Below are positions 9,603 through 32,627 of a DNA stretch of 64,000 nt, piece after piece. Origin of the DNA: Kordiimonas laminariae (lineage in GTDB: Bacteria > Pseudomonadota > Alphaproteobacteria > Sphingomonadales > Kordiimonadaceae); NCBI RefSeq assembly GCF_023008165.1, contig NZ_JAKQZA010000004.1, forward strand, positions 186,001 through 250,000, written 5' to 3'. A program made the position numbers and the translations under genes. The notes beneath the pieces are model-generated. The model was given only the letters and a program-made list of their open reading frames with translations, was not told the DNA's origin and did not search any database. The number at the start of each line of letters is the position of its first letter. Position 1 is the stretch's first letter.

Positions 9603-10163
9603 ATGACAGATGATGTTGCTGAAGGACAGCAGGTACCGGCGGGTTTTGATCCCCGGCTGCTTGGTAAGGCACAGTCAGATGTGGATGAGCAGGATGTTCA
9701 GCGTGGAAAGCTCGTTCAATATGTTTCGTTTAAGGTAGACGATAGCGAATACGGCATTGATATTATGGCGGTTCGTGAAATTCAGGGGTGGGTAACTGTA
9801 ACTACTCTTCCTAACACCCCTGAGTATGTACGTGGGGTTCTTAACCTGCGTGGTACTATTGTTCCGATTTTTGATTTGAGATGCCGTTTCGGTAACGGCC
9901 TCACAGACGCTACTCCCCTTCATGTTGTGATTATTGTAGCTGTTGGAGAACGCATCATGGGCCTGCTCGTAGATGCTGTATCTGACATCTTAACCATCGG
10001 TACTGAAGAAATTCTTCCTGTCCCTGAGATTGAGGCACGCTCTGATCAGCGTTTCCTTAATGGGTTGATTACTGTTCAGGACCGTATGGTGGCGCTTCTT
10101 CAAATTGAGAAGCTTTTTGATATTGACGAGCTGGTTGCTCGCGTGGGTGCTGCTGCTGAATAG
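9603..10163 (+). CDS. cheW: Chemotaxis coupling protein CheW
   Basis: A 186-residue CheW domain linking receptors to CheA. The typical core is present: Y-G-I-D-I-x-x-V-R-E-I, then G-V-L-N-L-R-G-T-I-V-P-I-F-D-L-R, and G-L-L-V-D-A-V-S-D-I. About 35 extra hydrophilic residues precede the domain. AAGGAAG stands before the ATG, and the gap to cheA is only 18 bp, so it is in the same operon. Confidence 0.93.
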   Translation: MTDDVAEGQQVPAGFDPRLLGKAQSDVDEQDVQRGKLVQYVSFKVDDSEYGIDIMAVREIQGWVTVTTLPNTPEYVRGVLNLRGTIVPIFDLRCRFGNGLTDATPLHVVIIVAVGERIMGLLVDAVSDILTIGTEEILPVPEIEARSDQRFLNGLITVQDRMVALLQIEKLFDIDELVARVGAAAE

Positions 10164-10212
10164 CAGACCACGTGGAATAGACTTTAGATTTGTAAGCCCT
10201 TAGGAGGCAAAA

Positions 10213-30584: not shown

Positions 30585-31727
30585 TTGACTATTTCCTGCC
30601 AGCGCCATCTTTTCGATATTCCTTCTGATATTTGTTACCTTAACGCATCTTACATGACGCCGCTCACCCTTAAGCAGGCGGAAGTGGGCGAGGCTGCCCT
30701 CAAACGATGCATGCAGCCCTGGACCGTGAGCCCTCAGGACTTTTTCGATACTGTCCAGCCGGTGAAGGACCTTTCAGCCCGAATGTTTGGGGTTAATCCT
30801 GAAGATATGGCTGTTATTCCTTCGGTGAGTTACGGCATCGCAAGCGCCGCGAAAAACATTAAACTGGAAGCCGGACAGAAGATTATCCTTCTCGAACATC
30901 AATTTCCCTCAAATGTCTATGAATGGCGTGATTTAGCTGAAGCACAGGAAGCTTCAATTATCACTGTTCCAACACCTGAAAACCATGATTGGACTTCCGC
31001 AATTCTTGAGGTGCTTGCTGAAGAAGGAGAGGCTGCTGGTTTGTTGGCGCTCGCAAATGTGCATTGGTCATCTGGCGCTCTTTTCGATCTGAAAGCTATC
31101 TCTGTTGAGTGCAGAAAAAATGGTGTTTCGCTTGTGCTGGACCTTACCCAATCAGCAGGCGCAGTCCCAATTAATCTGTCGGAAATTGATCCCGATTTCG
31201 CGGTGATTGGTAGCTATAAATGGATGATGGGCCCATATAGCATGGGGGTCATGTATGTACCGCCACGTAACCAGCAAGGCAGGCCGCTTGAACAGAACTG
31301 GATCGCCCGTAAAGATAGTGAAAATTTCAGCCAACTTGTTGACTATAAAGATGGGTATCAACCGGGTGCCACGCGGTTTGATATGGGGGAGAAATCCAAC
31401 TTTATTCTAAGCCCTGTTTATGCAGAAGGTATTCGTCAGCTTCTTGAGTGGGGTGTGGAAAATATCGCAACTTCAATTGATGCGCTGAATATGAAGCTTG
31501 CTGCTATTTGTGTAGCTGCCGGATTTGAGCCAATTGAAACAGCATACCGATCACCAAATATTTTGGGAGTTCACGTGGGAAAGCGTGCAGATGAAGTGCT
31601 TGGTAAACTTAAAGAAAACAATATTTCGGCTGGTATCCGCGGGGACATGTTGCGCCTTGCTCCACACCTATGGGTGAATGAAAATGACCTCGATCGTTTT
31701 GAAAGTGTTTTTAAAAGCTTGAAATAG
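30585..31727 (+). CDS. Class V aminotransferase (PLP enzyme)
   Basis: 380 residues of a fold type I PLP enzyme: S-Y-G-I-A-S-A phosphate-binding stretch, D in L-D-L-T-Q-S-A-G, and the Schiff-base lysine in G-S-Y-K-W-M-M-G. It is near kynureninase/cysteine desulfurase/isopenicillin epimerase-like members, so the substrate is open. The start is TTG preceded by GGAGTGAG. Nothing in the context tells the pathway. Confidence 0.82.
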   Translation: MTISCQRHLFDIPSDICYLNASYMTPLTLKQAEVGEAALKRCMQPWTVSPQDFFDTVQPVKDLSARMFGVNPEDMAVIPSVSYGIASAAKNIKLEAGQKIILLEHQFPSNVYEWRDLAEAQEASIITVPTPENHDWTSAILEVLAEEGEAAGLLALANVHWSSGALFDLKAISVECRKNGVSLVLDLTQSAGAVPINLSEIDPDFAVIGSYKWMMGPYSMGVMYVPPRNQQGRPLEQNWIARKDSENFSQLVDYKDGYQPGATRFDMGEKSNFILSPVYAEGIRQLLEWGVENIATSIDALNMKLAAICVAAGFEPIETAYRSPNILGVHVGKRADEVLGKLKENNISAGIRGDMLRLAPHLWVNENDLDRFESVFKSLK

Positions 31728-31836
31728 TCTGTTTCGATCTGAAGCGTTGTTTCAAAATGGCACATATTTCGATTAAAATATCTGTAGTTTTTTGAAACGT
31801 GTCTAATTAAGGTATTGATATATATGGTTTTTATTT

Positions 31837-31863
31837 TTGGCACGCTTAATGCTGTTATATAAG
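31837..31863 (+). promoter_or_regulatory. Possible promoter of the candidate small RNA
   Basis: TTGGCA (31837-31842) and TATAAG (31858-31863) are separated by 15 bp, shorter than the optimal 17. They would start transcription just before the first hairpin of the candidate RNA. Confidence 0.3.
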
Positions 31864-31981
31864 TGTCTTGGAAATCTTTGCCTGAGGTGACAAGACGTGA
31901 TTTGAAGAGCCTGCTTCCATTTTGCCTGAGTGGAGCAGGCTCGACTTATCAGCGGGCAGGAGCAATCCTGTCCGTTTTTTT
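31864..31981 (+). ncRNA. Candidate small RNA with three hairpins and repeated loop motif
   Basis: The 315-bp gap between the aminotransferase and acyltransferase genes has no reading frame worth calling but holds three ordered hairpins. HP1: GTCTTG/CAAGAC (31865-31870, 31891-31896). HP2: nine-pair GAGCCTGCT/AGCAGGCTC (31907-31915, 31934-31942), with three further pairs inside. HP3: nine pairs (31953-31961, 31966-31974), a GCAA tetraloop, then seven T. The loops of HP1 and HP2 both hold TTTGCCTGAG (31877-31886, 31921-31930). HP3 is 226 bp from the upstream stop codon, so it more likely ends its own transcript. I do not recognise a known RNA family; a leader for the acyltransferase gene is the alternative. 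Confidence 0.45.
31953..31981 (+). terminator. Rho-independent terminator with GNRA loop
   Basis: Nine-pair stem with one G-T wobble, GCAA tetraloop and a run of seven T. It lies 61 bp before the acyltransferase start and ends the candidate RNA or a long transcript from the aminotransferase gene. Confidence 0.85.
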
Positions 31982-32042
31982 ATTGCCAAATCCCTGTGCA
32001 GTAGAATAGCTTCCCTCGCTCGGGGGAAGTGAAGGAAGTTCC

Positions 32043-32627
32043 GTGAAAAGAAAACTAATCTACGACAACGGTTTTTTCCGTGGTCTTTTGCATGTGATTG
32101 CGAAAGCGTTTCTTAGGGTGACTGGATGGACCGTAATTGGGGAAGCACCAAACGATAAAAAATATGTGGTGATCGCAGGGCCTCACACCAGTAACTGGGA
32201 TTTCCCTCTCTTTATTGCTGTTGCTGGATATTTAAAGCTTAGGCCTTCTTTCCTTGGAAAAGATAGTTTGTTTAAGGGGCTGCACGGTAGGTTTTTCTAC
32301 TATATGGGCGGTATCCCTGTTTACAGGGAAGGACCGGAAGCTGCTGATATTGTAGATCAGGCGATAAGAGCTTTTGCTGGTAATGATGAACTGATTTTAG
32401 GTATTGCGCCAGAAGGTACCAGGTCAAAGGTAGAAAAGTTAAAATCAGGTTTTTACCGGATTGCAGAAGGGGCTGGGGTGCCTATTCATATGGCCTATCT
32501 GGATAGTGAAAAGAAAGAAATTGGTTTTGGTCCGCGGTATGTACCTTCTGGGGATATGGCGAAGGATATGGAAGAAATCTACCAGTTTTACAAAAGCAAA
32601 CCCGGTGTAAAGCCAAGGAATAACTAA
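32043..32627 (+). CDS. Lysophospholipid acyltransferase-family protein
   Basis: 194 residues. The acyltransferase motifs are H-T-S-N-W-D (block I, H-x4-D), G-G-I-P-V-Y-R (block III-like) and A-P-E-G-T-R-S (block for phosphate binding). It probably transfers an acyl chain to a 1-acyl-glycerophosphate or related lipid at the inner membrane. It belongs to the short family sometimes called glycerol acyltransferase, not classical PlsC. The start is GTG with GAAGGAAG upstream. Its stop overlaps the convergent FAD oxidase gene by CTAA. Confidence 0.82.
   Translation: MKRKLIYDNGFFRGLLHVIAKAFLRVTGWTVIGEAPNDKKYVVIAGPHTSNWDFPLFIAVAGYLKLRPSFLGKDSLFKGLHGRFFYYMGGIPVYREGPEAADIVDQAIRAFAGNDELILGIAPEGTRSKVEKLKSGFYRIAEGAGVPIHMAYLDSEKKEIGFGPRYVPSGDMAKDMEEIYQFYKSKPGVKPRNN

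Follow-up and report, generated by a model that had tools for sequence, protein, structure and literature searches.

A candidate small RNA (sRNA) gene, here named sRNA1, lies in a 64,000-nt window of the Kordiimonas laminariae genome (contig NZ_JAKQZA010000004.1, positions 186,001 to 250,000 of the forward strand; "the window" below). Sequence comparison suggests with good confidence that, in Kordiimonas and its relatives, this gene specifies a trans-acting, sigma-54-dependent sRNA that silences the tad genes of the Flp pilus. The RNA is conserved with covarying stems, a promoter layout recurs upstream of it, complements of its loops are concentrated at the starts of tad genes, and a second RNA, sRNA2, has changed jointly with the leader of the flp pilin gene in two genomes. 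Transcription of sRNA1, its dependence on sigma-54, the direction of its effect, and a need for Hfq are what we infer.

In the proposed mechanism, an enhancer-binding protein would activate both RNAs through sigma-54. The loops of two sRNA1 hairpins would expose the seed UUUGCCUGAG, and each could pair with CAGGCAA-type sites around the starts of tadG, cpaA, tadA, and others, while sRNA2, with the loop GCUGCCA, would cover the ribosome site of the flp pilin gene; ribosome binding would thus be blocked at the paired starts and pilus assembly silenced. A broader proposal, towards which the balance tips only slightly, is that the two RNAs, having the same promoter layout, jointly control the tad pilus, with seed sites scattered over many starts and seeds that are hairpin modules moved between RNAs. 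The operon would then be silenced by a distributed RNA code, not through one leader site.

Structure, conservation, and promoter of sRNA1

A preliminary description, made from the sequence alone, had placed in a gene-free gap an RNA of no recognised family with three hairpins, the last a terminator with a GCAA loop and the first two sharing an identical 10-mer. Refolding and a recheck of the coordinates agree with the three hairpins and the terminator, and both copies of the 10-mer, TTTGCCTGAG, were located, the only ones on either strand of the window (Table 1). The loops need one qualification, namely that in the minimum-energy fold the 10-mer ends in weak U-G/U-A pairs, which leaves a strictly unpaired loop of 5 nt; even so, sequence conservation extends over the whole 10-mer. 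For 31850-31995 the computed free energy is -59.7 kcal/mol, compared with a shuffled mean of -38.2 (z -6.05), and none of 200 shuffles was as low. The RNA sits between open reading frames (ORFs) for an aminotransferase (30585-31727) and an acyltransferase (32043-32627). Between these two, the ORF list holds no plus-strand ORF of 80 aa or more, in keeping with the gap described, and a 90-aa minus-strand ORF reaches into it only as far as 31843. Rfam 15 gave no match in the window, and in 31700-32100 only two weak matches far below the gathering scores, so the absence of a recognised family stands.

Homologues were sought in 98 genomes, the own genome included, with a covariance model (R1) built on the RNA alone, the promoter lying outside the model. 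At E up to 0.1, R1 matched 34 of the 98 genomes, and 28 were accepted as homologues: all 19 members of the genus (G013 with an identical copy), seven of the ten genomes from the rest of the family (G019, G020, G021, G023, G026, G027, and G028), and two from other families (G034 and G042). Six weak matches were not accepted (G075, G022, G041, G072, G077, and G093); inspection of G075 (L242) and G022 (L244) found the RNA anatomy lacking. The two-copy loop pattern is present in 11 of the 98 genomes and its reversed control in none, which exceeds chance. Across the genome contigs the pattern gave at least 115 loci, and among those listed eight had promoter-like upstream sequence; five of these are the RNA (L056, L077, L116, L120, and L123), from genus members already found, and the other three are not. 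Direct DNA search finds few homologues because the stems diverge: G013 appeared with its identical copy and G011 with a short match that is genuine, alongside other short matches. Among 385 genomes sampled across the class under strict filters, five had matches at E up to 0.01, and loops together with promoter were found only in the own genome.

Stems and loops without conservation in relatives would have spoken against the RNA as first described, and both proved to be conserved. The covariance search then suggested finds no Rfam family, and the homologues have covarying stems. Over 10 sequences, 46 of 60 pairs are formed in hairpin 1 (shuffled mean 35.9; 5 of 10,000 shuffles as high) and 54 of 60 in hairpin 2 (shuffled mean 37.1; 0 of 10,000). 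Over 27 sequences, in an alignment fitted to the model, the covariation score is 0.460 versus 0.245 for shuffled data (0 of 500 as high). Paired stem changes score well above shuffled and slid controls in both sets, and the loop core TTGCCTGA is nearly invariant among the homologues.

Upstream of the RNA, the pattern TGGCAY-N5-NTGC, which we take to be the -24/-12 form of the sigma-54 promoter, occurs at the right distance in 25 of 27 loci (missed in L229 and L241). The start of transcription in the window is therefore predicted at the position where the preliminary description began the RNA. A 17-nt palindrome, TGTNYCANNNTGRNACA, accompanies the promoter: its best three copies beat all 200 shuffles in 25 of 25 promoter-bearing loci, the motif having first been derived from part of the same loci that were later scored. 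Read backwards as a control, the palindrome likewise has a single match in the own genome. In 10 genomes searched whole, there are 21 exact matches to the palindrome and 2 to the control. A site resembling the IHF consensus is present in 21 of the 25 promoter-bearing loci. Judged by sequence, promoter and palindromes have the layout of an enhancer-dependent promoter, so transcription would be expected only when an enhancer-binding protein is active.

In G034 the palindrome also precedes a sigma-54 type promoter and a gene whose product has a PEP-CTERM sorting domain (L250; G034:C1, locus 1501; TIGR02595 above cut-off). In G020 (L251) it lies near a PEP-CTERM gene, with no sigma-54 type promoter by the same pattern. 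An RpoN promoter together with a predicted enhancer has been described for a PEP-CTERM gene (PMC9850573). Because of the arrangement in G034, PrsR was considered as the activator and rejected: its model passes the cut-off in one of 11 genomes (G034), and each of the 11 holds five to nine related proteins; nine matches to enhancer-binding proteins are listed for the own genome.

The position of sRNA1 directly upstream of the acyltransferase gene, on the same strand, would suit a cis-acting leader or attenuator of that gene, as would the acyltransferase that follows the RNA in 14 of 25 loci, G017 included. On the upstream side, the neighbour matches the window's aminotransferase in seven of the 25 loci; a match to the window gene one further upstream was found in 11. 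The RNA, however, ends in a strong terminator, and in five relatives (G003, G006, G014, G020, and G027) an opposite-strand FAD-oxidase gene directly follows the RNA, which is kept together with its promoter, and no acyltransferase was found within 1.5 kb. Because a different, opposite-strand gene follows in these five, the RNA does not serve the acyltransferase gene as a leader. The preliminary description had allowed for a known leader of this kind; the neighbour comparison largely refutes that role, which we hold to be extremely improbable.

Complements of the sRNA1 loops at tad gene starts

The preliminary description had likened the repeated loops to those of sRNAs that pair with many ribosome sites and had proposed that their complements be counted near start codons. 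For the exact complement of the 10-mer, CTCAGGCAAA, 99 sites outside the RNA itself were examined, comprising all sites of G000 (the own genome) and G034, those of G011, G012, G001, and G003 apart from the riboswitch site, and eight of the 21 in G005; the sites of G006, G007, G013, and G018 were left out. Thirteen lie near a start codon, 53 are sense and 32 antisense within genes, and one is intergenic. Two of the 13 belong to tad loci, at cpaC (G034) and a tadG-like gene (G011), and the Flp pilus locus was therefore examined.

Tad loci of 20 kb (18-19 kb in G034 and G042) were taken from 19 of the 29 genomes with cpaC, 17 of them RNA-positive. The 7-mer CAGGCAA, complementary to the loop and so fixed beforehand, was counted in a near-start window of -35 to +22, with starts called mechanically. 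Of its copies in the 17 RNA-positive loci, 84 are on the pilus strand and 29 on the opposite one. Near starts it was counted 24 times, in 12 of the 17 genomes. Of the 210 orderings of its letters it scores highest (mean 1.77, sd 2.32; runner-up 9), and its raw near-start count is the highest of all 16384 7-mers. G024 and G025, family members that lack the RNA, have no near-start copy, and neither do 56 genes of the window. At tad starts, complements are thus commoner than expected, as had been suggested, and the predicted pairing with many ribosome sites gains support from the promoter, the terminator, and the covarying stems as well.

The distance of the CAGGCAA sites from the start differs between genomes, and sites are often doubled at several tad gene starts; they are therefore not simply one inherited sequence, and the doubling fits the two loops of sRNA1. 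In the own genome, calculated pairing energies of the loop are -13.7 to -13.8 kcal/mol for cpaA, tadA, and the tadG-like gene, and none of 56 control starts does better than -12.5; cpaA and tadA have two sites each. Pfam names most genes of this locus, tadG and cpaE being named by position and weak similarity. Read from the sequences, a conserved seed is complementary to the putative translation starts of several genes.

The first codons, or a stretch of about 15 nt around the start codon, hold many of the tad sites, and at flp the complement of sRNA2 falls at a Shine-Dalgarno (SD)-like GGAG; both placements are typical of repression. The direction of the effect is unreadable from sequence, and some sites are placed 20-30 nt before the start codon, as could be expected if the same RNA, acting on the same targets, activated translation or stabilised the tad mRNAs. 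Given the other positions, we regard activation as unlikely.

Near-identical motifs in two loops might also be presented to a protein, as in decoy RNAs of the CsrA/RsmA or Crc/Hfq sponge type, and RNAs of the CrcZ type are under sigma-54 control. The loops of sRNA1, however, are without a GGA core, and a decoy does not predict a complement concentrated on the sense strand at the starts of one pathway, which makes this function very unlikely.

A further alternative concerns a glycine riboswitch. Upstream of a gcvT-like gene in the own genome, the first aptamer contains CUCAGGCAAAA, to which the loop sequence UUUUGCCUGAG is exactly complementary, and the RNA might lock the riboswitch through these 11 nt. 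The tandem RF00504 is present in all 11 genomes searched and the exact core in nine of them, but this core belongs to a widespread aptamer, so its conservation is no evidence for pairing. The core is CTCAGGCAGAAGG in G018, giving a G-U pair, and CTCAGGCCAAAGG in G034, giving a mismatch; both genomes keep the RNA loops. The site is moreover one of the 13 near-start sites among the 99 and has no counterpart to the multi-gene pattern of the tad locus. The 11-nt complement is probably a coincidence, and action on the riboswitch is highly improbable.

Genes with sites on contig C6 of G003 (L354 and L355) were considered as tad genes and rejected, their neighbourhood in the ORF list being unlike a tad locus. 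On the same contig (L412), loop complements lie at the start of a ParA-like gene (7843) and, doubled, at that of a lipoprotein-like gene (10131-10169). Both genes, named by eye and outside the tad locus, are possible extra targets.

A second RNA, the flp leader, and points against pilus control

The palindrome search revealed a second RNA-like gene, sRNA2, with palindromes, a sigma-54 type promoter, hairpins, a terminator, and GCTGCCA loops. In the own genome it is flanked by a gene for a solute-binding protein (modA-like by eye) and a gene of the metallo-beta-lactamase fold. The GCTGCCA loops occur in one to three of its hairpins, and G010 has two CTGCCA loops. In 22 of 30 genomes sRNA2 lies next to the marker gene (1.5 kb from it in G012). 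A covariance model for it (R3) had a poor consensus structure and was not used.

The loop of sRNA2 is complementary to the flp pilin leader TTGGCAGCTGGAG, and the complement abuts or covers the SD-like GGAG. Loops were obtained from 15 genomes and compared with flp in 12, leaving out G003 (flp leader not captured, loop drawn from the wrong site) and G007 and G008 (no tad locus in the set); for G012, sRNA2 comes from L290, on the upstream side of the marker gene, and the G024 sRNA2, located through a sequence fragment, is without a promoter match. Within their own genomes, loop and leader are complementary over 7-12 bp in 11 of the 12. Both partners have changed in G023 (CCAGCTACCAA), with 11 bp between them versus six with the consensus partner, and in G017 (CGACTGCCA), with nine versus six. 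The core of sRNA1 varies too little to reveal seed-target compensation of this kind.

In four genomes sRNA2 holds the motif of sRNA1, as TTTGCCTGAG between hairpins in G006 and G014 and as TTGCCTGA within a hairpin in G008 and G009, so the sRNA1 seed is common to both RNAs. The flp start regions of G034 and G042 read TTGGTAGCTGG, and an sRNA2 loop with AGCTACCA in these genomes would favour the pairing with flp, whereas one with AGCTGCCA would disfavour it.

Two further features of these RNAs were noticed. The terminator hairpin of sRNA2 has in many genomes a C-rich loop, of the GCCCCACCTCAATCCGC or CCCCCTTTCCC type, that could serve as a third seed. By eye, a TTTYGAGTA-like element recurs in the linkers of sRNA1 and sRNA2 (L238, L225, L231, L430, and L447), with several copies in G008, and may be a protein site or a third seed that both RNAs share.

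Several results weigh against silencing of the tad pilus by these RNAs. Most exact 10-mer sites lie away from starts, 13 of the 99 being near one. In near-start enrichment over the remainder of the locus, CAGGCAA comes 14th of 16384, and several of the words ahead of it resemble conserved start sequences. No near-start CAGGCAA was counted in G012, G006, G042, G023, and G026, and G006 and G026 also had none with the 6-mer CAGGCA, partly owing to the mechanical start calls. The TadE gene, cpaC, cpaE, tadC, and flp of the own genome are without a strong sRNA1 site. The negative controls are small: near-start CAGGCAA was absent from 1858 positions in the RNA-less family members G024 and G025, where about two were expected at the positive rate, and from 56 window genes, where about one was expected at the background rate. 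The genomes are related, so their sites are not independent events. As for sRNA2, it was not found beside the marker gene in eight of 30 genomes (G019, G020, G022, G025, G026, G027, G034, and G042), and loop and flp leader are complementary over only 6 bp in G001, which has the changed leader of G017 without the changed loop and so disagrees with the joint changes in G023 and G017.

Table 1. Features of the sRNA1 locus and related elements; positions are those of the window unless a genome and contig are given.
Feature	Position	Strand	Basis or remark
sRNA1, candidate small RNA gene	31864..31981	+	fold, covariance model, homologues; about 118 nt
Hairpin 1	31865..31896	+	fold; covariation
Loop 1 motif TTTGCCTGAG	31877..31886	+	conserved core TTGCCTGA
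Hairpin 2	31907..31942	+	fold; covariation
Loop 2 motif TTTGCCTGAG	31921..31930	+	two-copy pattern
Intrinsic terminator	31952..31981	+	stem 31952-31975, GCAA loop, T run to 31981; covarying helix 3
Weak copy of the putative enhancer palindrome TGTNYCANNNTGRNACA	31730..31746	+	3 mismatches; among best three copies; letters checked
Exact putative enhancer palindrome TGTTTCAAAATGGCACA	31748..31764	+	only exact match in the window and in the own genome
Weak third palindrome copy	31783..31799	+	4 mismatches; among best three copies; letters checked
IHF-like site TAAGGTATTGATA	31808..31820	+	resemblance to consensus
Sigma-54 type -24/-12 promoter TGGCAC-GCTTA-ATGC	31838..31852	+	predicted start 31864
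sRNA2	G000:C20:159472-159609 (L289:1482-1619)		own genome; also L256, L263, L261, L262
Tandem glycine riboswitch RF00504	G000:C20:346940-347124 (L163, L178)		upstream of gcvT-like gene

Significance and relation to known regulatory RNAs

Tad pili are attachment organelles. If the proposed control holds, one signal could stop the building of pili at once, even from mRNA already made, and the seeds common to the two RNAs would offer a natural system for studying how the target sets of sRNAs evolve. A literature search covering titles and abstract openings, with most subscription papers outside its scope, met no description of a small RNA that controls Tad pili in Alphaproteobacteria, and searches of the same scope on Kordiimonas and on sigma-54-dependent sRNAs in Alphaproteobacteria met none of the present RNA.

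Sigma-54 and an enhancer-binding protein control the Qrr sRNAs in Vibrio and, in Pseudomonas, CrcZ; these RNAs have different seeds and targets. In its promoter region, sRNA1 resembles GlmY, a small RNA gene controlled by QseF/GlrR, for which PMC8745638 gives three putative upstream activator sites, sites for IHF, and overlapping sigma-54 and sigma-70 promoters; sRNA1 likewise has three upstream sites, an IHF-like site, and a sigma-54 type promoter. The activator site of GlmY, however, is TGTCN10GACA, whereas the conserved sites at sRNA1 are the 17-nt palindromes TGTNYCANNNTGRNACA, which does not place sRNA1 in the GlmY/GlrR regulon. GlmY itself is described as a decoy in the GlmZ/RapZ pathway.

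The closest known design is that of NfeR1 of Sinorhizobium meliloti, of the alpha-r14 family. As described in PMC10746234, NfeR1 acts in trans and has three hairpins with an identical ultraconserved motif, and its redundant seeds silence mRNAs at translation initiation regions. The likeness to sRNA1 extends to three hairpins, an identical motif in unpaired regions, and diverging stems. The motif itself differs: NfeR1 carries the anti-Shine-Dalgarno CCUCCUCCC in each of three hairpins, whereas sRNA1 has the seed UUUGCCUGAG. NfeR1 is activated by LsrB, and the targets named for it are transporters and ntrB, not a pilus locus (PMC10746234). The loops of sRNA1 carry TTTGCCTGAG and not CCUCCUCCC, and no Rfam match links the two RNAs, so membership of sRNA1 in alpha-r14 is not indicated.
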